From assembly GCF_003473485.1 (NCBI RefSeq), contig NC_053046.1, positions 30,829,332 through 30,893,331 on the forward strand: a stretch of DNA of 64,000 nucleotides. Reading direction: 5' to 3'. This stretch comes from Medicago truncatula. Lineage: Eukaryota > Streptophyta > Magnoliopsida > Fabales > Fabaceae. Position 1 is the first letter of the stretch, and every line of letters starts with the position of its first letter. The position numbers and the translations under genes were made by a program. Positions 25,741-64,000 of the stretch are shown piece by piece. The notes beneath the pieces are model-generated. The model did no database searches, had not been told where the DNA came from, and saw only the letters and a program-made list of their open reading frames with translations.

Positions 25741-26608
25741 TCTATATGCAATAGTACAAATGTTAATGCAATTAAAAGAAGTAACTTTTCATTAAAAACC
25801 AACAATTATTTATTAAAAGCTATATATTTAATTAGGAATGAATGAGGCGTTTCCTAGACCAAATGGTATTTGAATAAAGAGAGAGAAGGCATGAATTTAT
25901 TTTAGAAAGCATTGAAGAAGATTTAATCCAGATATTACAGAAAGAGAGATGACAAGATTTTTTTATAGAGTAATGAAAATAATTAGATGTGTGAGGTGTA
26001 TTGTGTTATTGTGCTTGCATATAATCCAATGGCTATAAAAATATTGGTCCATTATGGACCAATACTTACAGAAGTCCATGCTAAACGGCACCTTGAATAA
26101 AACCCATCAATCAGGGACACAACACAATCAGTTTGGCAAAACTGAATTTTTCCTTCAAAATTGGTAAATGGACGCAATACATTACATACACAACAAGTGA
26201 TCATTGTTAAGCAAAACTGAATGATTGTTAGTTTCAAAGTAATGGTTTTTTTTTAACATAAAACTGTGCAAATTGTTTCTAATGACTGAGAAAGTAAATT
26301 AAATTGATTATTGAAGTTTCCACAACATAGATGTATAAGCATGGACTATTTAGTGCAAAGAATGAATCTTTGTACTGAAAAATCCATGTTGTAATTCTAT
26401 GAGATATTGAATCCAGAACCTGTAATACATACTCAATGAAAAAATAATAAAAAATCATGATGTATAATTGATTTTAATTTACTAGCATTCCTATCAACAA
26501 CAATTTGCACTGATTTACCATCAGCAATGGACGCTAAACAAATAATAAATTCAATATGCATCATATTAAATACTTCTGCTGATAGACCAAAAAAATTTGA
26601 AATTTTAC

Positions 26609-26720
26609 GGTGCTCAGTGGAAGGAGAAGTCGTTTTAAAAAAAAGCTCACGGCAAAACCTTTACGATTTTGTCCACTGCCCATAAACACTTCCTTGGTGT
26701 TTTTATCTCATCATAGCACC
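26609..26720 (-). ncRNA. Box C/D snoRNA (sn6), antisense to the 18S rRNA 3' end
   Basis: On the minus strand a terminal stem GGTGC...GCACC (26720-26716 and 26613-26609) encloses box C ATGATGA (26714-26708) and box D CTGA (26617-26614). Directly before box D, the 15-nt element ACGACTTCTCCTTCC is fully complementary to GGAAGGAGAAGUCGU near the 3' end of plant 18S rRNA (sequence from memory). The RNA is longer than usual (112 nt) and has an internal hairpin GGACAAAATC / GGTTTTGCC. Known RNAs pairing at this end of 18S include U13/snR45-type adaptors for cytidine acetylation, so a U13-like role is possible but inferred. It is the last member of the cluster. Confidence 0.85.
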
Positions 26721-26816
26721 AATTAATAGATAAATTAAATCAGAGGAACAAAAACAAATGAATCAGAGCTACAATATTATAGAAAACAAACTATGAAACA
26801 AAAATTATAAAAGAAT

Positions 26817-26900
26817 GGCTTCAGTGTGTGTAACATTCAGATCATAGATATAAAATCTCACTGAAATCCGCTAAGATAAAGTATATTATCATCATAAGCC
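26817..26900 (-). ncRNA. Box C/D snoRNA (sn5), antisense to 25S rRNA
   Basis: Terminal stem GGCT/AGCC (26900-26897 and 26820-26817), box C ATGATGA (26895-26889) and box D CTGA (26824-26821); a second CTGA lies at 26840-26837. Two antisense stretches pair with neighbouring parts of one plant 25S segment: CTTAGCGGATTTC with GAAAUCCGCUAAG, and TGTTACACAC with GUGUGUAACA. In 25S these two sites are only a few bases apart (sequence from memory). Double pairing to one helix region is typical of several conserved guide RNAs. Confidence 0.85.
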
Positions 26901-27032
26901 AAATAAGCATTCACCTATTAGACGCAATTATAAAGCAAAAATAACGAAATTTCAGAAAAAAATTAACAGAGAAGAATCAAGATCAAATTATCATGATATT
27001 TGAAAATTGTGTGCTCAGACAGCCAAGGGGTT

Positions 27033-27101
27033 GTAATCAGATTCTGGGTGAAGATTCCCAGATCAGAAACTCTAGTCCACATAAGTATCATCACAGCACA
27101 A
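27033..27101 (-). ncRNA. Box C/D snoRNA (sn4), antisense to 25S rRNA
   Basis: Box C GTGATGA (27094-27088), an internal CTGA as D' (27066-27063) and box D CTGA (27040-27037). The flanks TTGT and ACAA can form a short terminal stem across a small internal loop. The stretch before D', GGACTAGAGT, is complementary to ACUCUAGUCC of plant 25S rRNA (remembered). The guide before box D (CACCCAGAAT) has no target that I recognise. It is slightly less certain than its neighbours because the stem is weak. Confidence 0.75.
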
Positions 27102-27273
27102 TACTAATATTTAACAGAAAATACAATAAAAAAAACAACAAAAAGAAAATTAATTGAAATTAAGATTCATAATTTGATAATCAAAGTCACTGTTAGGAAG
27201 ATGCAGCTCGCAAAACTAGGTCAATTTATCAGAGACCCCCACCCCACTAACATAATTGTAAGCTGGTTCCGTA

Positions 27274-27350
27274 TCTAACATTCTCAAACACCTTAAACCT
27301 CAAATGCAATTTAAACAATTTAGAGATTAAAAGTGTTCCAGAATGTTAGA
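27274..27350 (-). ncRNA. Conserved-looking hairpin within the snoRNA cluster gap
   Basis: TCTAACATTC and GAATGTTAGA form a perfect 10-bp outer stem. It continues inward through AACAC/GTGTT and TTAA/TTAA with small loops, giving a hairpin of about 77 nt. It lies in the 766-bp gap between sn3 and sn4, where other small RNAs (for instance an H/ACA RNA) would be expected. No identity is assigned. Confidence 0.35.
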
Positions 27351-27867
27351 TGAAGAGCCTGCTTCAAGATGTTCCAACTTTATGCAAAGTCCAATGATAT
27401 TTTAGTTGCTATAATGTCAATTCCATCGCCCCATCCACTTCAATTTCGGTTTCTATGTTTGAAATCAAAGTAATGCAAAAACATTTGAGAAAACAATATC
27501 AGAAACATATGTATACAATTACAAAACAGAAAACAGATATTCAAACATTGTTTGAGAAAAGCATGAAATCAAACAAACAGAAATCAATTTTGATAAAAAC
27601 TGAAAACCAACCCTAAAGGGACCTAAGAGATGAGTGAAAAATGAATATGCGGCATAGTTACTAGTAAACACCTTGATGTAATAATCAAATATGGCATTTA
27701 TCAGCGAAACTTCCAACACTTAATTTTGGCCTCCCATGAATCAGTTTAAGAACTTCAATATTCAATCTTAACTGGGATTATGAAGGCCAAATAAAAAAGT
27801 TACATAGGGCTAATCAAAATTTAACATGATGTTAGAAAATAAGAAATTAAAGACAAGTATGAATTAT

Positions 27868-27962
27868 GCACATCATCAGAATGGAAAGTTCATCTCATCC
27901 ACAACATATGTTGTGTAGGAAGGTGTCCTAAGATTTATTCCAAACTCATCACATGATAGTGC
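27868..27962 (-). ncRNA. Box C/D snoRNA (sn3), antisense to 25S rRNA
   Basis: Terminal stem GCAC-T-ATCA / TGAT-GTGC (27962-27954 and 27875-27868), box C GTGATGA (27952-27946) and box D CTGA (27879-27876). An internal GGATGAGATGA may serve as C'. The stretch ATCTTAGGACACCTTCC is complementary over 17 nt to GGAAGGUGUCCUAAGAU, which I recall from plant 25S rRNA. The D' box following it is degenerate (CTACA-like). Confidence 0.85.
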
Positions 27963-28058
27963 AAATTCAAACTCCTCAAATATTTACAAATTATAAATTA
28001 ACACAACATTTGATGAAAATTAATCTAAAAGCAAAACATTGCCATTATAGCCCAAAAT

Positions 28059-28144
28059 GTAGATTCAGAAACGTAATAGATATATTTGGCATCACTATAT
28101 CAGATCAAGTGTTGGATTATATATTTTGCTTCATCATTATCTAC
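28059..28144 (-). ncRNA. Box C/D snoRNA (sn2), U29/snR71-like guide for 25S rRNA
   Basis: Terminal stem GTAGAT/ATCTAC (28144-28139 and 28064-28059), box C ATGATGA (28137-28131), D' CTGA (28103-28100), C' GTGATGC and box D CTGA (28068-28065). The guide before D', ATCCAACACTTG, is complementary to CAAGUGUUGGAU of plant 25S rRNA. The fifth nucleotide upstream of D' points to the second A of CAAG, which I believe corresponds to the site modified by yeast snR71 and human U29. The boxes and stem are directly visible; the orthology rests on memory. Confidence 0.88.
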
Positions 28145-28224
28145 CAAAGTAAAAACACTTCAAATCAAATTATAAACAACAAAATAACTATATAAGCATC
28201 AAATTAAGAAAAGTGGAAGAATAA

Positions 28225-28316
28225 CTAGTTAACTCAGTCCCTTAGATGTTCAATAAAAATGCGATCATACCCGCAATTCATTACAGGTCTGTTAAAGACT
28301 CATCACAGTTAACTAG
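28225..28316 (-). ncRNA. Box C/D snoRNA (sn1), double guide for 18S rRNA
   Basis: A perfect 9-bp terminal stem CTAGTTAAC/GTTAACTAG (28316-28308 and 28233-28225), box C GTGATGA (28306-28300) and box D CTGA (28237-28234). AACATCTAAGGG before box D matches CCCUUAGAUGUU, and ACAGACCTGT further upstream matches ACAGGUCUGU; these are adjacent segments of plant 18S rRNA. The second antisense element is the one I recall from U25 (SNORD25). This is the first RNA of the cluster, about 360 bp after the TATA box. Confidence 0.9.
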
Positions 28317-28599
28317 TGAAGCCCCATTTAATCAAATCACCCAAAAGCGAAAACCCATTAATAAAAAAACGATTTTTAAGAGAAATTAAGAATTTAGTTG
28401 TTCTTGCGTTCTCCCAAAACCAAAAAAAGGGGGTTTTGGAAGTGAATTGAAAGAACAACACATATTAATATTGCTTCAAGGGAACGAGTCTAATGGGAAT
28501 TGAATTAATCCGCAATGACTAGATAGTGAAGCATACTACTACTACATTATGAATTGAAAAATTAACAAGAGAAATGAACAAGATTGTGAGAAAATTGGA

Positions 28600-28682
28600 A
28601 AACCCTAGATTTCAAATGGGGGAAGGAAAAAGTGGATGGAAACGGCGCATGACAAATTAGCTCTTGTGTGCCTCTTTATATA
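28600..28682 (-). promoter_or_regulatory. Promoter of the snoRNA cluster: TATA box and telo-box-like motif
   Basis: On the minus strand TATATAAAG lies at 28682-28674. AAACCCTA (telo-box-like, + strand orientation) lies at 28600-28607, about 70 bp downstream and probably in the leader. Telo-boxes are known near the start of plant genes for ribosome biogenesis, including snoRNA clusters. A transcript from here would read through sn1 to sn6. A Harbinger-like element begins only about 80 bp upstream. Confidence 0.6.
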
Positions 28683-28760
28683 ATGAATGAATCTATGATT
28701 TTCCCTTTTTTTTATTTTTTTATTTTTTTTATAAATAAATAGATTTTGATTCATCTCTAT

Positions 28761-29651
28761 GTGTGTGTTTGGTTCTGAGGTGTGTAGAATTAATTCTGAC
28801 AGAATTGATTCTGAAAGAATTGATTTTGACAGAATTGATTCTGACAGAATTGATTTATGTTTGGATGCAATAATGCAGAATTGATTAAACAGAATGATTG
28901 TTGTTTGGATAGTTTTGATCAAAATTACTTTTGAATGTATAATTACCAAAATAGACATAGTTAAATACAAATAAATAGAAATTACTAAATTAAGATAATT
29001 AAGTGCAATATAGTCCTAAAATATAAGGTATTACAATACTAACATCATGAAAATAAAAATTACAAATAGATAATAGAATTTAAAGTGCAATAGAGTATTA
29101 AAATATTATTACAAAACTAACATAATGTGTATTATAGTACTAAAATATTGATATAATAATTTAAAGTACAATACTAATTATTTTGCCTGTGCTCAATAAT
29201 TTCATTGCGGATTATGTTTCGAACGCGATCCATCTCTGACGATGAAACTACATTTAAAACTTGTGATTGATCCAAGTTAGATGAGCTATCATCATGAGAA
29301 AAGTGGACTGTGAAGGGGGAATGGAATTAATAGAATTGAGAGTTAAGACTGCAGAAAATAAATGTTATTCTCTTCACCAACATTTATTTTAATAAGACTG
29401 CAGAAAGAAAAAATTCGGTTGGAGAAGGGTTAGAAAAATTAATGAGGGCAGGGATGGAATTAATAGAATTGAGGGTGTAGAATTGATTCTAGGAAAGTAA
29501 GAAGCTAGGAATTGTAGCTTCAACTAGAATTGCTTTTGGAGGATAAAAGCTATTTTGAAAAGCCAAACCAAACATGTTAAATATTGCAGAATTGCTTTTG
29601 AAATGCTCCAGAATTGATTCTGGCTTTGCAAAAGCCAAACCAAACAGAGGC
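28761..29651. mobile_element. Harbinger/PIF-like non-autonomous element with transposase tail remnant
   Basis: Ends GTGTGTGTTTGGTT (28761) and AACCAAACAGAGGC (29651) are inverted. Subterminal zones repeat AGAATTGATTCTG words. The interior (about 29185-29310, minus strand) reads SQVLNVVSSSEMDRVRNIIR before a stop, which resembles the C-terminal end of plant PIF/Harbinger nuclease proteins; that family link is tentative. No clear 3-bp target duplication was identified. It is inserted just upstream of the snoRNA cluster promoter. Confidence 0.6.
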
Positions 29652-30018
29652 ATAAATATTTTCATTTTTTGTTTTAATTCTCTTTAAAAAAATGACTATT
29701 AATCCTCCAAAAAGAATTATCATCCTTCTTGGTTTTTAAGTTAACTCATGTGTATAGTTTTAAATATTGAATATTTGGTCTTTTAAATCAACTCATGTAT
29801 ACAAAATGAAATATTGAATTTTTTTGTTGTGGTATGTTTAGAATATTATAAAAATATTCTAAAAAAAATAGTTTTTCTAATAAAACATTAATTAATAGTT
29901 AAATATGAATTTTATATTTTTTATATTTAAAAATTCATATTTAATTTATGTTAAATTTTTTTAAACATATTCTTATAATATTCTAAATATTCCAACAATA
30001 ATTCTTTCAAAAACCTAA

Positions 30019-30367
30019 GGGTGTGTTTGTTTCAAGTTATAATTGTTGATTCCTGGGAATAAAATGATTGGAATGTATATGTCTATGTTTGTTACAAGTT
30101 TACTAAATTTTATTCCCGGGTATAAAATGTTCCTGGGAATAGAAAAAATTTCCCATGAAAAAGGGTGGGAATAAAGTTCCCATGGAGATGAGAATAAATT
30201 CATAAATAGTTTACCTATTATAATCCCTATTTTTATGGTTCCTAGGAATATTATAAAGCTAACCAAACATATTTTTTCTAAATTCCTTGGAATAAAATTC
30301 CCATCTTTATATTCCAAGGAATGTTATTCCTAGGAATAAATTTGGTAAACTTGAAACAAACACACCC
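30019..30367. mobile_element. Tourist-like (PIF/Harbinger) MITE, 349 bp
   Basis: Inverted ends GGGTGTGTTTGTTTCAAG (30019) and CTTGAAACAAACACACCC (30367) are perfect. They are flanked by the 3-bp target duplication TAA (30016-30018 and 30368-30370) typical of this superfamily. The inside is rich in CCTGGGAATA/TATTCCC words and folds strongly. The 100-codon open frame on its minus strand is a by-product. Confidence 0.85.
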
Positions 30368-30370
30368 TAA

Positions 30371-31184
30371 AAGATATACAAAAAGTTTATCAATGTATTT
30401 TAATGGGTCCACCACAAAACAAGCAGGGGCAGGCCCACCATAAGACATGGCGTGGCTACAACCACACGAGATTTTTTTTTTTTTTTGAAGAAATAACCAC
30501 GCAAGATTATTACCTTTTTTTTACAACTATATTGAGTATATACTTAGCGCATCACCTATTTACATATAAACTTACAACGGTTTAGTGGAAGAACATTTGT
30601 TTAGCAAGAGCTTGGTTCTCGGTTTGACTCCCAAAAATGGCTTGTTGGATATGTTTAAATGTTTCACCGTCATATATAACTTTTGAATGTCCAAATTTAA
30701 AAATCCTTCATAATTTAATATAAAGAGTTGATTCCTCTTACAATAAGCACATATGTCATCGCAAGTTCCTTTCATGGTGAAAAAAGGTTTCAAACAACAC
30801 AAATTTTTGCATAGTTTGTTTTGTTCATGTACTTACATCCACCACATAGCAAATGTTTTAATGTTTAATTTCATACTTATTTTATTGGCACCCTAATGTC
30901 ACCAAAGTATTTTTCTAACAAGTGATGAGAAGAAAAAAATTCAAATTTTCTTTTCATGAAAATCCAACACGTGACATGTGGAATTAGATACGCATAAAGA
31001 ACTACTGTATTTTGTAATAATCACAAGTATCTTTTATCGCAAGTTCCTTCTACCGATGAAAAGTTTGTCCATGTATCTGTAATGGTCTACCAAATAGCAA
31101 ATGATTCAATAGAATTGTTAGTTAATCACGGTTTTAATATTTAATCTCATATTTATTTTTAAACCATGCATCTTATCTACCATT
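30371..31184. other. Intergenic
   Basis: No exon seen. It holds a short poly-T tract (30472-30486) and AT-rich sequence. Confidence 0.5.
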
Positions 31185-38492: not shown

Positions 38493-41400
38493 ATGGGGAT
38501 TATGTGTATTAGAATCATATTTCTACTAGCTGCTTATTGCTTGCTTCCTCTATCTGTGGATGCCATGGTTCGCCACTACAAGTTCAACGTACGTGCATTA
38601 TTTACAATTCTGGTGTTATTATTATTAGTCATAGTTTTATTATCAGGGATAAAAAAAACAAGATAATGCTATATTAATATTCAAGTTTAATTTATTAACT
38701 TGATGAAGTTAGAGAAAATAAATACGACATCAAATTGCATATATGCTTAGAAAAACATGCATGCATACAAGAATCCTAGGGATATTTTTGTTTTGGTTTC
38801 TCTTTACTATTTTTTATCTATTTGTCTGTATAAAAATATCATTAACTTTTTTTCAAAAAAAATTATACTAATATGTACCAAACCATTGTTCTGTTAAGTT
38901 TGTCTACCAATTGTCATCTTCAAATTGTATTAATTTTTGAGCAATGCAAGGCACTCAAGTTTGGTAGATGTTACATGTCATGCACTTAGACTTTATTTTT
39001 GTTCTTGTTGACTCCTATATCTACTTCATGACCATTAAGGTTGATAATGTTTTATTATTATTGTTAATTCAGGTGGTGATGAAGAATGCCACAAGATTGT
39101 GTTCAACCAAACCCATTGTAACTATAAATGGGAATTTCCCTGGCCCCACCATCTATGCTAGAGAAGATGATACTGTTCTTGTTAAGGTGGTTAACCATGT
39201 CAAATACAATGTTAGCATCCATTGGTGAGTGTGCTACAATTCATTACTTCATATACATTATCTAAATATGCTATTTAACCTTAATTAATCTTATACAATA
39301 TGAATGTTAAACAGAGTCCTCAATGCATTGGTTAAACAATCAAAACAAGTAATTTGTTTATAAAATATAGTGTAATATTACTTAATCAAATGTCAAAATT
39401 TATATTTACGAAACAAATTTTCTATTTATAGTTTCCTTAACCATTGCCCTTAAAATTGATCGATAGGCATGGAATCAGACAGTTGAGAACAGGTTGGGCT
39501 GATGGGCCAGCATACATAACCCAATGCCCAATTCAACCAGGCCAGGTCTATATGTACAATTTTACCCTCACAGGACAAAGAGGAACACTTTGGTGGCATG
39601 CACATATACTTTGGCTTAGAGCAACTGTACATGGTGCTATTGTCATTTTGCCTAAGCTTGGAGTTCCTTACCCTTTTCCTAGACCCCACATGGAACAAGT
39701 TATCATATTGAGTTAGTTCTTCTACCTTTTCCTTTATATTTTTTGCTAATAAATACATCACTTCATAGAGTTTTTTTTTTAAATGGTATAGGGATCATGG
39801 TTCATAAACCTTACAATTTTCAATTTTGTTTAGGTGAATGGTGGAAATCAGATACTGAGGCTATAATAAATGAAGCTTTGAAATCTGGATTGGCCCCAAA
39901 TGTCTCTGATGCTCACACTATCAATGGTCATCCAGGGCCTGTTCAACATTGTGCTTCACAAGGTCAAATCTACAAAATTAACCTTCAATGTTAATACTTC
40001 GGATTTTGGGGGTGGGAAAAGAAACTCCATTTTTATTTCTCATGTATAATTCAACAAAGCCCAACATTGAGAGAGAAAAAAGGAACTTCTTTTCCCACCC
40101 AAAAATTACTTCTGAAGTATGTTTTCAAAAACTTTCAGATAAAAATACAAAAAATTGCTTGTTCAATAGTATACTTTCGAACGAAAATGTATGAGGTGGT
40201 AAAAGGGGCTCTTAATAAAAATCATTTATAACCGGGTTAAATAATTTTTTTAGTAATAAAAATACAACTATCTTTCTAGTAAAAATCATGTTATTTTCAT
40301 TATAGTTATTTCTTACTATTTTTTGCACAAAATTTCATTTATATCTTGTGTGTGTATTTGTACAAATATATTTTCTTTTAAAGAGTATTTGTACAAATAT
40401 ATTAGAAAATAACATTATGATATTATGGTGAAATATAATTGAAATTTTACATAAACCATATACCAATTACCATGTCAATCTCTAATTTTTTAACTCTAAA
40501 AATATTTCCTACCAAGAAATAAATTATAAATGAATAATTTATGTAATTAAAAGAAAAACACAAATAATTTACCCAAAGGTGCTTATATGAGATGACACAC
40601 TTTGTCGCGTTAAAACTCTTAGGGAGAGTTTGTCGTCCATTTGGGTCCCAGAATGCTCAAGAGATTAGTCTCTGCAGTTGTGCGTGGAGGATACCCAGAT
40701 TACAACAAAAAAATAAACACACAAAATTTCAAAAAAAAAAAAAAGATTATTAATTCTTCGAAGTAACATAAAATGAGGTTTAACAACATTTTCATTTTTC
40801 AATTATGCAGAAGGATTCAAATTCCAAGTTGAACCAGGAAAAACCTACTTGCTAAGAATAATCAATGCAGCACTAAATGAAGACCTATTCTTCAAAATTG
40901 CTGGACACAAATTTACTGTTGTTGAAGTTGATGCTGCATACACAAAACCATTCAAAACAGACACAATAGTAATAACACCAGGACAAACAACAAATGTACT
41001 TCTCAAAACCAACCATGCAAGTGGCAAATACATGGTAGCAGCTTCAACATTCATGGATGCACCAATTGCAATAGACAATGTAACAGCCACTGCCACATTA
41101 CATTACCCAAATACCCTTGGTTCAACAATCACAACACTCACTTCACTACCTCCAATAAATTCAACAAAAATAGCTAACAGTTTCACTGACTCATTAAAAA
41201 GTCTGAATTCCCATAAATACCCTGCTAGAGTCCCTAAAAAAATTGACCATTCATTGTTTTTTACTGTGAGTCTTGGTGTTAACCCTTGTGCTACATGTCC
41301 CAATGGTAGTAGAGTTGTTGCAGCTATAAATAATGTAACATTTGTCATGCCTAAAATTTCACTTCTTCAAGCACATTTTTTTAACATTAGTGGAATTTTT

Positions 41401-42376
41401 ACTGATGATTTTCCTAGAAAACCTGAAATAGTATATGATTTTACTGGGAATAAACAGCCATCAAATTTTAGGACTAATAAAGGGACTAGGGTTTATAGAC
41501 TTGCTTATAATTCAACAGTTCAATTAATTTTGCAAGATACTGGAATGATAGCTCCTGAGAATCATCCTATTCATCTACATGGATTCAATTTCTTTGTAGT
41601 TGGTAAGGGACAAGGGAATTTTAATCCTAAAAAGGATACTAAAAAGTTTAATTTGGTTGATCCTGTGGAGAGAAATACAGTTGGTGTTCCATCTGGTGGA
41701 TGGACTGCTATCAGATTCAGGGCTGATAATCCAGGTAATGTTATTTGAAAACCCTAGGGTATTTTTCTCTTTTTTATACAAGAGTAAATATTTAAGTTTG
41801 GTACATGATATCGTAGCTTTGTATGAATCTACTCTTCACATTATTGATATTTTAAAATGATCACTGAAATTAGCTCGGTTGGTAAAGGACAATGCATAAT
41901 ACATGCAAGGTTCGGGGTTCGAATCCCGATTACCACAAAAAAAAAATTCAACGCTATAATGGTATTTATAGAGACTAGAATGACATAACGTTGGTAATAT
42001 CATGAATGAATTTGAAAATAAATAAATAATGTCAGAGATGTATTTGATAACATATTCAAACAAGCGTCAAAATTCATTAATATTTTTTAATTTCATGAAT
42101 TGTTTTGAAATATTAATAATTTGGGGACTAAATTGACACATTCCTGGAATTTCAAGGACCAACTAATGTAATTACTCTTTAAAAAAGAGTTGAATTTTGG
42201 TGTCACAATTTTTTCTTATATGATATATTGTGTTAATCTTTTCAGGGGTATGGTTTATGCATTGTCATTTGGAAATTCACACAACTTGGGGATTGAAGAT
42301 GGCATTTGTTGTGGACAATGGTAAAGGACCAAATGAATCTTTACTACCACCTCCAAGTGACCTTCCCAAGTGTTGA
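38493..42376 (+). CDS. Laccase (multicopper oxidase)
   Basis: Six exons: 38493-38588, 39073-39224, 39467-39711, 39834-39962, 40811-41734 and 42246-42376, all GT-AG with consistent phase, 558 aa. A signal peptide ([20 protein letters not shown]) sends it to the cell wall. All four copper motifs are present: HWHG (82-85), WWHAH (125-129), HPIHLHG (459-465) and HCHLEIH (521-527). Cys522 is the type 1 copper ligand and Leu lies at the axial position (532). Many N-glycosylation sites (NVS, NFT, NST, NGS) fit a secreted enzyme. Plant laccases oxidise monolignols and other phenolics with O2. Unusual points: WWHAH is followed by ILWL where SSWL is usual, and SEWW replaces the common GEWW. A SINE sits in intron 5. 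The specific laccase subgroup cannot be told. Confidence 0.93.
41867..41947 (+). mobile_element. SINE in laccase intron 5
   Basis: A-box-like TTAGCTCGGTTGGTAAAGG and B-box-like GGGTTCGAATCCC are spaced as in tRNA-derived SINEs, followed by ACCAC and a run of A. It lacks a foldable acceptor stem, so it is not a tRNA gene. Confidence 0.65.
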
Positions 42377-46776: not shown

Positions 46777-47092
46777 GGCTTAATTGCACTTTTGGATTCC
46801 TATCTTTTCAAAAGTTGCGGTTATGGACTCCTAACTAATTTAAATACAAAACAGCCCCCTATGTTTTGATTCTTTGGCAGTTTTGGATCCCCAGTCCATT
46901 GTTGACTCGGTCAACGCTGACGTGGCATCCTAAGTGAGGATGCCACGTGTCAATTTTTTTTTTTTTTTTTGCCTTGGGGGTCCAAAACTGCCAAAGAATC
47001 AAAACATAAGGGGCTGTTTTGTATTTAAATTAGTTAGGGGGTCTATAACCGCAACTTTTAAAAAGATAGGGGTCCATAAATGCAATTAAGCC
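46777..47092. mobile_element. MULE-type MITE, 316 bp
   Basis: Inverted ends GGCTTAATTGCACTTTTGGA (46777) and its partner ending GCAATTAAGCC (47092). The inverted similarity runs through AAAACAGCCCC / GGGGCTGTTTT and TTTGATTCTTTGGCAGTTTT to a central TGCCACGTG palindrome. The 9-bp flanks TTTTTTTAA (46768-46776 and 47093-47101) are identical. Confidence 0.85.
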
Positions 47093-58994: not shown

Positions 58995-61900
58995 GAAAAG
59001 TGCATTTTTTGTACTTGGGTCTGTCCATTTGAGGTGATCCTCGTAGGTTAGTCTGGAACCATGTGTTGCATAACTTAAAGATCTAGATTGTCTGGTTGGA
59101 AAAGTCGTTTCTTTTCTTTCGGGGGCCGTTTGACTTTGCTTAAATCTGTTCTGACCTCTCTGCCTGTCTATGCACTTTCCTTCTTCAAAGCTCTGTCAAG
59201 TATAATCTCTTCCTTTGAATCTTTGCTTAATTTTTTCTTTTTTGGGGAGGGAGTGAGGATCATAGAAAAATTCTTTGGATTAATTGGAATACCATTTGTC
59301 TCAACAAGGAGTCTGGAGGTCTGGGGGTTAGGTAACTAAGGGAGTTTAATTTATCTCTTTTAGGGAAATGATGTTGGAAGATGTTAGTTGACAGATGTGG
59401 GTTTTGGTAAAGGGTGTTGGCTGCTAGGTATGGTGAGGAGGCAGAGAGGTTGGAGGTTGGGGGCCGGAGGTGGCTAAAATAAGGGCTGGAGTGGGCTATG
59501 AGATTGTTGGGTGGTTTCCGGAGATGGTGTCCCGTAAGGTGGGAGATGGGGCTGACACTTTCTTTTGGTTTGATAGGTGGTTAGGAGATGTGCTTCTCTG
59601 TCAGCGTTTTAGGCTGTTGTTTGATCTAGCGGAGAACATGTTGTCTTTAGTTGCTACTATGTTCTCTCTAGGATGGGGGGAGGGGGTGAGGCTTGGCAAT
59701 GGAGAAGGATGTTGTGGATATGGGAGGAGGAGTTGTTAGCGGAGTGTAGGATATTACTTTCTAACGTTATTTTGCAGGGTAATGTTTCCGATCATTTGTT
59801 TGGGTATCGGTTGACTGCTTGGTTTGTAATTTTTTAACAAATACTTCGTTTCTTTGAGAGTCCTCTCTGGTATGCCTTGTGTCAAAGAGGTGTCTCTGTT
59901 TATGTGATTATATATATACCATTTTTGTTTCTTAAAAAAAAAGTTAGTTTTGTCTATATCATAAAATTTTTAAAATCTAATGAGCACTTTTAAATCACCA
60001 AAATTAGTGTTTATATTAAATGTTTATTTTATTTTAAAAAAATTGTTTAATATTTACATCGTGTTAGTTGCGGATATAGACATTTGTTTCAATGTAAAGA
60101 AAAAAACTTTTCAAGAGGAGAAAGCGTTAATGCCAAAAAATTCATATTGTTGATATTTGGGTGCTTATGATGTCTAAGAATAATTGATTACAAGTGAAGT
60201 TTATAATGGAATTTCAAACTCAACACAAACTCTATGGAATTCAAAATCTAGTTGGAAATGGAGAAGTGGCGTGTTCGGGGTTCAAACCTTTAGTCCCTGC
60301 ATATATTATTCAGAACAAGGGGTTGTTAGTGAATGTAATGGAATTCATATATTGTTGTTAGTGAATGTAATGAAAAGTGCATTTTTTGTACTTGGGTCTG
60401 TCCATTTGAGGTGATCCTCGTAGGTTAGTCTGGAACCATGTGTTGCATAACTTAAAGATCTAGATTGTCTGGTTGGAAAAGTCGTTTCTTTTCTTTCGGG
60501 GGCCGTTTGACTTTGCTTAAATCTGTTCTGACCTCTCTGCCTGTCTATGCACTTTCCTTCTTCAAAGCTCTGTCAAGTATAATCTCTTCCTTTGAATCTT
60601 TGCTTAATTTTTTCTTTTTTGGGGAGGGAGTGAGGATCATAGAAAAATTCTTTGGATTAATTGGAATACCATTTGTCTCAACAAGGAGTCTGGAGGTCTG
60701 GGGGTTAGGTAACTAAGGGAGTTTAATTTATCTCTTTTAGGGAAATGATGTTGGAAGATGTTAGTTGACAGATGTGGGTTTTGGTAAAGGGTGTTGGCTG
60801 CTAGGTATGGTGAGGAGGCAGAGAGGTTGGAGGTTGGGGGCCGGAGGTGGCTAAAATAAGGGCTGGAGTGGGCTATGAGATTGTTGGGTGGTTTCCGGAG
60901 ATGGTGTCCCGTAAGGTGGGAGATGGGGCTGACACTTTCTTTTGGTTTGATAGGTGGTTAGGAGATGTGCTTCTCTGTCAGCGTTTTAGGCTGTTGTTTG
61001 ATCTAGCGGAGAACATGTTGTCTTTAGTTGCTACTATGTTCTCTCTAGGATGGGGGGAGGGGGTGAGGCTTGGCAATGGAGAAGGATGTTGTGGATATGG
61101 GAGGAGGAGTTGTTAGCGGAGTGTAGGATATTACTTTCTAACGTTATTTTGCAGGGTAATGTTTCCGATCATTTGTTTGGGTATCGGTTGACTGCTTGGT
61201 TTGTAATTTTTTAACAAATACTTCGTTTCTTTGAGAGTCCTCTCTGGTATGCCTTGTGTCAAAGAGGTGTCTCTGTTTATGTGATTATATATATACCATT
61301 TTTGTTTCTTAAAAAAAAGTTAGTTTTGTCTATATCATAAAATTTTTAAAATCTAATGAGCACTTTTAAATCACCAAAATTAGTGTTTATATTAAATGTT
61401 TATTTTATTTTAAAAAAATTGTTTAATATTTACATCGTGTTAGTTGCGGATATAGACATTTGTTTCAATGTAAAGAAAAAAACTTTTCAAGAGGAGAAAG
61501 CGTTAATGCCAAAAAATTCATATTGTTGATATTTGGGTGCTTATGATGTCTAAGAATAATTGATTACAAGTGAAGTTTATAATGGAATTTCAAACTCAAC
61601 ACAAACTCTATGGAATTCAAAATCTAGTTGGAAATGGAGAAGTGGCGTGTTCGGGGTTCAAACCTTTAGTCCCTGCATATATTATTCAGAACAAGGGGTT
61701 GTTAGTGAATGTAATGGAATTCATATATTGTTGTTAGTGAATGTAATGAAAAGTGCATTTTTTGTACTTGGGTCTGTCCATTTGAGGTGATCCTCGTAGG
61801 TTAGTCTGGAACCATGTGTTGCATAACTTAAAGATCTAGATTGTCTGGTTGGAAAAGTCGTTTCTTTTCTTTCGGGGGCCGTTTGACTTTGCTTAAATCT

Positions 61901-64000
61901 GTTCTGACCTCTCTGCCTGTCTATGCACTTTCCTTCTTCAAAGCTCTGTCAAGTATAATCTCTTCCTTTGAATCTTTGCTTAATTTTTTCTTTTTTGGGG
62001 AGGGAGTGAGGATCATAGAAAAATTCTTTGGATTAATTGGAATACCATTTGTCTCAACAAGGAGTCTGGAGGTCTGGGGGTTAGGTAACTAAGGGAGTTT
62101 AATTTATCTCTTTTAGGGAAATGATGTTGGAAGATGTTAGTTGACAGATGTGGGTTTTGGTAAAGGGTGTTGGCTGCTAGGTATGGTGAGGAGGCAGAGA
62201 GGTTGGAGGTTGGGGGCCGGAGGTGGCTAAAATAAGGGCTGGAGTGGGCTATGAGATTGTTGGGTGGTTTCCGGAGATGGTGTCCCGTAAGGTGGGAGAT
62301 GGGGCTGACACTTTCTTTTGGTTTGATAGGTGGTTAGGAGATGTGCTTCTCTGTCAGCGTTTTAGGCTGTTGTTTGATCTAGCGGAGAACATGTTGTCTT
62401 TAGTTGCTACTATGTTCTCTCTAGGATGGGGGGAGGGGGTGAGGCTTGGCAATGGAGAAGGATGTTGTGGATATGGGAGGAGGAGTTGTTAGCGGAGTGT
62501 AGGATATTACTTTCTAACGTTATTTTGCAGGGTAATGTTTCCGATCATTTGTTTGGGTATCGGTTGACTGCTTGGTTTGTAATTTTTTAACAAATACTTC
62601 GTTTCTTTGAGAGTCCTCTCTGGTATGCCTTGTGTCAAAGAGGTGTCTCTGTTTATGTGATTATATATATACCATTTTTGTTTCTTAAAAAAAAAGTTAG
62701 TTTTGTCTATATCATAAAATTTTTAAAATCTAATGAGCACTTTTAAATCACCAAAATTAGTGTTTATATTAAATGTTTATTTTATTTTAAAAAAATTGTT
62801 TAATATTTACATCGTGTTAGTTGCGGATATAGACATTTGTTTCAATGTAAAGAAAAAAACTTTTCAAGAGGAGAAAGCGTTAATGCCAAAAAATTCATAT
62901 TGTTGATATTTGGGTGCTTATGATGTCTAAGAATAATTGATTACAAGTGAAGTTTATAATGGAATTTCAAACTCAACACAAACTCTATGGAATTCAAAAT
63001 CTAGTTGGAAATGGAGAAGTGGCGTGTTCGGGGTTCAAACCTTTAGTCCCTGCATATATTATTCAGAACAAGGGGTTGTTAGTGAATGTAATGGAATTCA
63101 TATATTGTTGTTAGTGAATGTAATGAAAAGTGCATTTTTTGTACTTGGGTCTGTCCATTTGAGGTGATCCTCGTAGGTTAGTCTGGAACCATGTGTTGCA
63201 TAACTTAAAGATCTAGATTGTCTGGTTGGAAAAGTCGTTTCTTTTCTTTCGGGGGCCGTTTGACTTTGCTTAAATCTGTTCTGACCTCTCTGCCTGTCTA
63301 TGCACTTTCCTTCTTCAAAGCTCTGTCAAGTATAATCTCTTCCTTTGAATCTTTGCTTAATTTTTTCTTTTTTGGGGAGGGAGTGAGGATCATAGAAAAA
63401 TTCTTTGGATTAATTGGAATACCATTTGTCTCAACAAGGAGTCTGGAGGTCTGGGGGTTAGGTAACTAAGGGAGTTTAATTTATCTCTTTTAGGGAAATG
63501 ATGTTGGAAGATGTTAGTTGACAGATGTGGGTTTTGGTAAAGGGTGTTGGCTGCTAGGTATGGTGAGGAGGCAGAGAGGTTGGAGGTTGGGGGCCGGAGG
63601 TGGCTAAAATAAGGGCTGGAGTGGGCTATGAGATTGTTGGGTGGTTTCCGGAGATGGTGTCCCGTAAGGTGGGAGATGGGGCTGACACTTTCTTTTGGTT
63701 TGATAGGTGGTTAGGAGATGTGCTTCTCTGTCAGCGTTTTAGGCTGTTGTTTGATCTAGCGGAGAACATGTTGTCTTTAGTTGCTACTATGTTCTCTCTA
63801 GGATGGGGGGAGGGGGTGAGGCTTGGCAATGGAGAAGGATGTTGTGGATATGGGAGGAGGAGTTGTTAGCGGAGTGTAGGATATTACTTTCTAACGTTAT
63901 TTTGCAGGGTAATGTTTCCGATCATTTGTTTGGGTATCGGTTGACTGCTTGGTTTGTAATTTTTTAACAAATACTTCGTTTCTTTGAGAGTCCTCTCTGG
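58995..64000 (+). repeat. Tandem array of a 1,377-bp LINE-containing unit (3.6+ copies)
   Basis: Head-to-tail units at 58995-60371, 60372-61747, 61748-63124 and 63125-64000 (cut by the window edge). The copies look identical; the only length change I found is 8 instead of 9 A in a run (unit 2). Each unit has three parts: (a) about 950 bp from the C-terminal reverse transcriptase region of an L1-type LINE (WKSRFFSFGGRLTLLKSVLT, SLPVYALSFFKA, later DTFFWFDRWLGDV); (b) about 250 bp AT-rich; (c) about 200 bp related to the MYB 3' flank (52735-52876), plus a SINE scrap (GTTCGGGGTTCAAACC). The LINE part is broken by stops and shifts and is 5'- and 3'-truncated. This is either a satellite born from a LINE fragment by recent unequal exchange, or an assembly artefact. 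Confidence 0.95.
59010..59935 (+). mobile_element. Truncated L1-type LINE within repeat unit 1
   Basis: YLGLSI and GDPRRL precede LSGWKSRFFSFGGRLTLLKS, TSLPVYALSFFKA and SFESLLNFFF. After a frame change come the plant LINE words IGIPFVSTRSLEVWGLGN and, in a further frame, FPEMVSRKVGDGADTFFWF and DLAENMLSLVATMFSLGW. These are the thumb and post-RT region of plant L1 reverse transcriptase polyproteins. It ends in GTTTCTT plus an A-run. Catalytic RT motifs, endonuclease and RNase H are missing. Units 2-4 carry the same piece at +1,377 bp steps. Confidence 0.85.

Follow-up and report, generated by a model that had tools for sequence, protein, structure and literature searches.

A snoRNA gene cluster of Medicago truncatula that most likely joins two clusters still separate in the same genome

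The polycistronic TeloSII snoRNA genes of Arabidopsis and rice are the closest described counterparts of a minus-strand small nucleolar RNA (snoRNA) cluster that we analyzed in Medicago truncatula, within a 64,000-nt stretch of contig NC_053046.1 (positions 30,829,332 to 30,893,331; hereafter the window, whose own numbering is used below). As described in PMC4660826, these genes resemble the window cluster in a spacing of about 100 bp, a mixture of C/D and H/ACA members, a TATA sequence, a telo-box, and no protein gene seen. The cluster is a genuine set of plant polycistronic-type snoRNA genes, six C/D (the class that guides rRNA methylation) and one H/ACA (the class that guides rRNA pseudouridylation), in a row after a single promoter-like sequence, of a type that is ordinary and expected for a plant genome; the instructive part is a rearrangement, as the cluster most likely arose by fusion of two clusters that are still separate in the same genome. 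Its transcription, processing, and methylation are predicted from family membership, and a single precursor for all members is likewise predicted. Our literature search, mostly of papers available without subscription, returned no title or abstract opening that describes this cluster. The members are as follows.

28228–28313, minus strand: SNORD25 (U25), C/D; Rfam RF00054, 77.4 bits, cut-off 39
28059–28143, minus strand: snoR31, C/D; RF01288, 74.6 bits, cut-off 44
27869–27961, minus strand: RF00353-like C/D unit; RF00353, 40.9 bits, below the cut-off of 45, E 9e-4
27643–27778, minus strand: snoR83, H/ACA; RF01227, 86.1 bits, cut-off 40
27007–27103, minus strand: snoZ157/R69/R10, C/D; RF00333, 64.4 bits, cut-off 55
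26816–26901, minus strand: snoR11, C/D; RF00349, 82.4 bits, cut-off 50
26609–26720, minus strand: snoZ152/R70/R12, C/D; RF00350, 96.2 bits, cut-off 50

A first-pass annotation had described six minus-strand units with box C, box D, and a terminal stem, and all six are confirmed: each unit has an exact box C (RTGATGA) close to its 5' end and an exact box D (CTGA) close to its 3' end, and the stems comprise 4–10 Watson–Crick pairs. The annotation had proposed Rfam C/D models as a check, and these place five of the six above the gathering score, with E-values of 2.3e-11 to 6e-18. Its all-C/D composition did not hold, as it had overlooked snoR83. Chance motif matches in A+T-rich DNA are an extremely improbable source of these genes; background pairings do occur (three elsewhere in the 64 kb), but shuffles of the region give at most one match against the seven observed, and the E-values of the five units argue further against chance. 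The RF00353-like unit has a second copy at sister locus L013 (2262–2353, 40.8 bits, 89/93 identical). When the genome was searched with RF00353, nothing reached E <= 0.001, and control genomes likewise gave nothing; this null result does not signify absence, because locus scans give two copies just under threshold.

Guide sites were predicted by the D+5 rule, under which antisense elements preceding box D or D' select the ribosomal RNA (rRNA) nucleotide to be methylated. Stand-in rRNA pieces were used because the rRNA of the species itself could not be recovered, and they were checked solely by inter-site spacing against an Arabidopsis table (PMC8053127). An exact 25S 28-mer has no match in the genome, 380 nt of the stand-in 25S match only six stretches (78–92% identity), and the 18S start pattern has two copies on C9, where Rfam finds partial 18S only. 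Loci L024 and L025 on C9 carry partial 18S rRNA that is intact at the 5' end, and no 25S was found nearby; complete rDNA units that can be read are apparently missing from the assembly. The 5.8S family gave three matches in the genome but also matches in 9 of 14 control genomes and was not used, nor was the single contig that three scans of viral contigs yielded.

For four of the six C/D units, the spacing on the stand-in rRNA agrees with Arabidopsis methylation sites, which supports the annotation's reading of plant C/D snoRNA genes in one independently promoted cluster, as do Rfam and the motif statistics against shuffles. SNORD25 is predicted to guide 18S G1434 (D') and U1448 (D), 14 apart as in the table; snoZ157/R69/R10 would guide 25S C2366 (D) and U2422 (D'), with the tabulated spacing of 56. 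The predicted snoR31 site, 25S A2912 (D'), lies 10 from the A-loop U and that of the RF00353-like unit 31 from the P-loop G of the stand-in rRNA, both as in the table. By this spacing, the predicted sites are the same as those given for Arabidopsis SnoR19, SnoR31, SnoR10, and SnoR37 in PMC8053127 (table 1). Both guides of snoR11 pair with the stand-in 25S beside the U24 sites (C1447, A1459, G1460), and none of its predicted sites occurs in the same methylation table; snoR11 may serve as a chaperone or as a guide specific to its lineage. Arabidopsis SnoR12 is listed there with targets 25S A945 and A2127; snoZ152/R70/R12 is connected with these by name only and shows no pairing with the stand-in rRNA pieces, whose span excludes both sites.

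The history of the cluster is read from its sister loci. L013, at C5:31.636 Mb on the opposite strand and about 0.78 Mb away, has snoR136, which the window cluster lacks, and a Site II element, which is absent from the 1.7 kb upstream of the window cluster, and is without module B, the snoZ157-to-snoZ152 part of the window cluster, in the 7 kb scanned. L004 and L005, both on C4, have their own promoter-like elements, unlike module B in the window, and L004 keeps snoR80. The C/D genes are 92–100% identical to their paralogs (SNORD25 is 86/86 identical to the L013 copy), with gaps in just two of three L005 comparisons, whereas the spacers are 74–84% identical with 34–96 gap columns. High identity of the C/D genes beside diverged spacers therefore points to constraint after duplication, and this contrast between snoRNAs and spacers is a further support for the annotated C/D genes. 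Two H/ACA genes found in the sister clusters are missing, and the remnants are these.

28145–28168, no strand: point of snoR136 absence, 24 bp here against about 238 bp in L013
26093–26187, minus strand: first part of broken snoR80, 73.7% identical to L004 1690–1803, with 19 nt missing relative to L004
25837–25878, minus strand: second part of broken snoR80, 92.9% identical to L004 1658–1698
25870–26101, minus strand: dispersed repeat inserted within snoR80, 214 bp plus two flanking 9-bp copies of TTTATTCAA

The alignment breaks at window 28144/28169 against L013 2095/1856, and snoR136 is located at L013 1864–2004 and L014 1843–1981. Intact snoR80 occupies L004 1657–1781 (105.5 bits); beyond the repeat inserted in the window copy, the genome contains at least 38 partial matches to it. 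The retained H/ACA gene, snoR83, aligns over the whole family model including both hairpins, its minimum free energy (MFE) is no better than that of shuffles, and its tail reads ATA in the window where L013 has the ACA box expected three bases from the 3' end. In some H/ACA RNAs, ATA can take the place of ACA. The presumed promoter region contains two elements.

28675–28682, minus strand: TATA sequence TATATAAA of the presumed RNA polymerase II promoter; L013 promoter homology extends to 28690
28600–28607, minus strand: telo-box located 3' of the TATA sequence, reading AAACCCTA on the plus strand and TAGGGTTT on the transcribed one

The cluster has the telo-box and TATA sequence of a plant TeloSII gene and no Site II element (TGGGCY) within 1.7 kb upstream, the nearest upstream match being at 30432; a further match, at 28049, falls within the cluster itself. 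In L013, Site II (1250) and a telo-box (1261) both precede TATATA (1363). Exact telo-boxes occur in L013 (1261, 1445, 1462) and L004 (2558) and were not found in the L005 stretch. Upstream of 28690 the window has no match to L013 and contains a 15-bp tandem repeat (28786–28855) and other repeats. Across the window, TGGGCY matches 19 times against 25 expected, not above chance, and AAACCCTA matches 10 times against 3.35 expected, a number reached in 0 of 100 shuffles; because of these frequencies, single matches to either are weak evidence. The window promoter may be weaker than that of L013.

These losses are what a decaying duplicate would display, in which the genes are alike since the fusion is young, the cluster is silent with its upstream promoter elements gone, and the paralogs do the work. 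The missing Site II, the end of L013 homology 8 bp upstream of the TATA sequence, the state of snoR136, snoR80, and the snoR83 tail, and the finding of at least one other genomic copy of every cluster member all fit. We nevertheless regard decay as unlikely given the constraint on the C/D genes and the retention of the TATA sequence and one telo-box. Processing from introns of a protein-coding host is very unlikely: plants do have intronic clusters, mostly in ribosomal-protein or ribosome-biogenesis genes according to PMC4660826, but six of the eight stop-to-stop frames of at least 90 aa in 22–34 kb were tested and gave no Pfam match, a test that covers no shorter exons, and the promoter-like sequence close upstream of U25 is common to L013. 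That module B forms a second transcript from its own unrecognized promoter in 27.1–27.6 kb is improbable, as the Site II/TATA promoter common to L004 and L005 is missing there and homology to L004 starts only at 27183, some 90 bp past the L004 TATA sequence.

Under the fusion of two clusters, the persistence of the unfused modules in the same genome makes the window cluster a natural experiment. It raises the questions of whether a promoterless module is still expressed from its neighbor's promoter and why H/ACA members vanish while their C/D neighbors barely change; the paralogous clusters supply locus-specific sequence differences for testing expression. Between the modules lies one further feature.

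27258–27366, minus strand: single-copy foldback, MFE -45.0 on the transcribed strand and -36.0 on the other

The foldback matches only itself in the genome, forms a near-perfect-duplex stem-loop, and has an MFE index (MFEI) of 1.18 on the transcribed strand; it is among 11 hairpin loci in the 64 kb that pass MFEI 0.9 and -30 kcal/mol, and it has no Rfam microRNA (miRNA) match above threshold. Its folding would make it miRNA-like at most. We offer as a long shot that the rearrangement, in joining two operon-like snoRNA units, trapped or created the foldback, so that one transcript would yield seven rRNA-modification guides plus a young miRNA; the locus would then be a recently arisen sno-miRNA gene whose pre-fusion state persists in the sister loci.

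Elsewhere in the window, an inverted-repeat element (30018–30369) is 94% identical over 298 bp to L015 5001–5298, beside another U25 cluster on C2. Rfam MIR2619 scores above threshold on both strands at 46849–47019, which fits a palindromic repeat and not a stranded miRNA gene. A coding stretch at 40777–41748 encodes a multicopper oxidase (laccase-like), and a unit of about 1377 bp is repeated in tandem at 59260–63869, with the same frames at 59260, 60637, 62013, and 63390; one frame is retroelement-like by eye, yet Pfam gives no match.

Against the systems described in PMC4660826, the foldback resembles the dicistronic sno-miR775 and sno-miR779 genes in lying among snoRNAs on the transcribed strand, and differs from them in being known from sequence alone and in its Rfam result. 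Unlike the plant TeloSII genes of the same source, the window cluster is without Site II in its upstream 1.7 kb, and it joins two modules that are separate elsewhere in the same genome.
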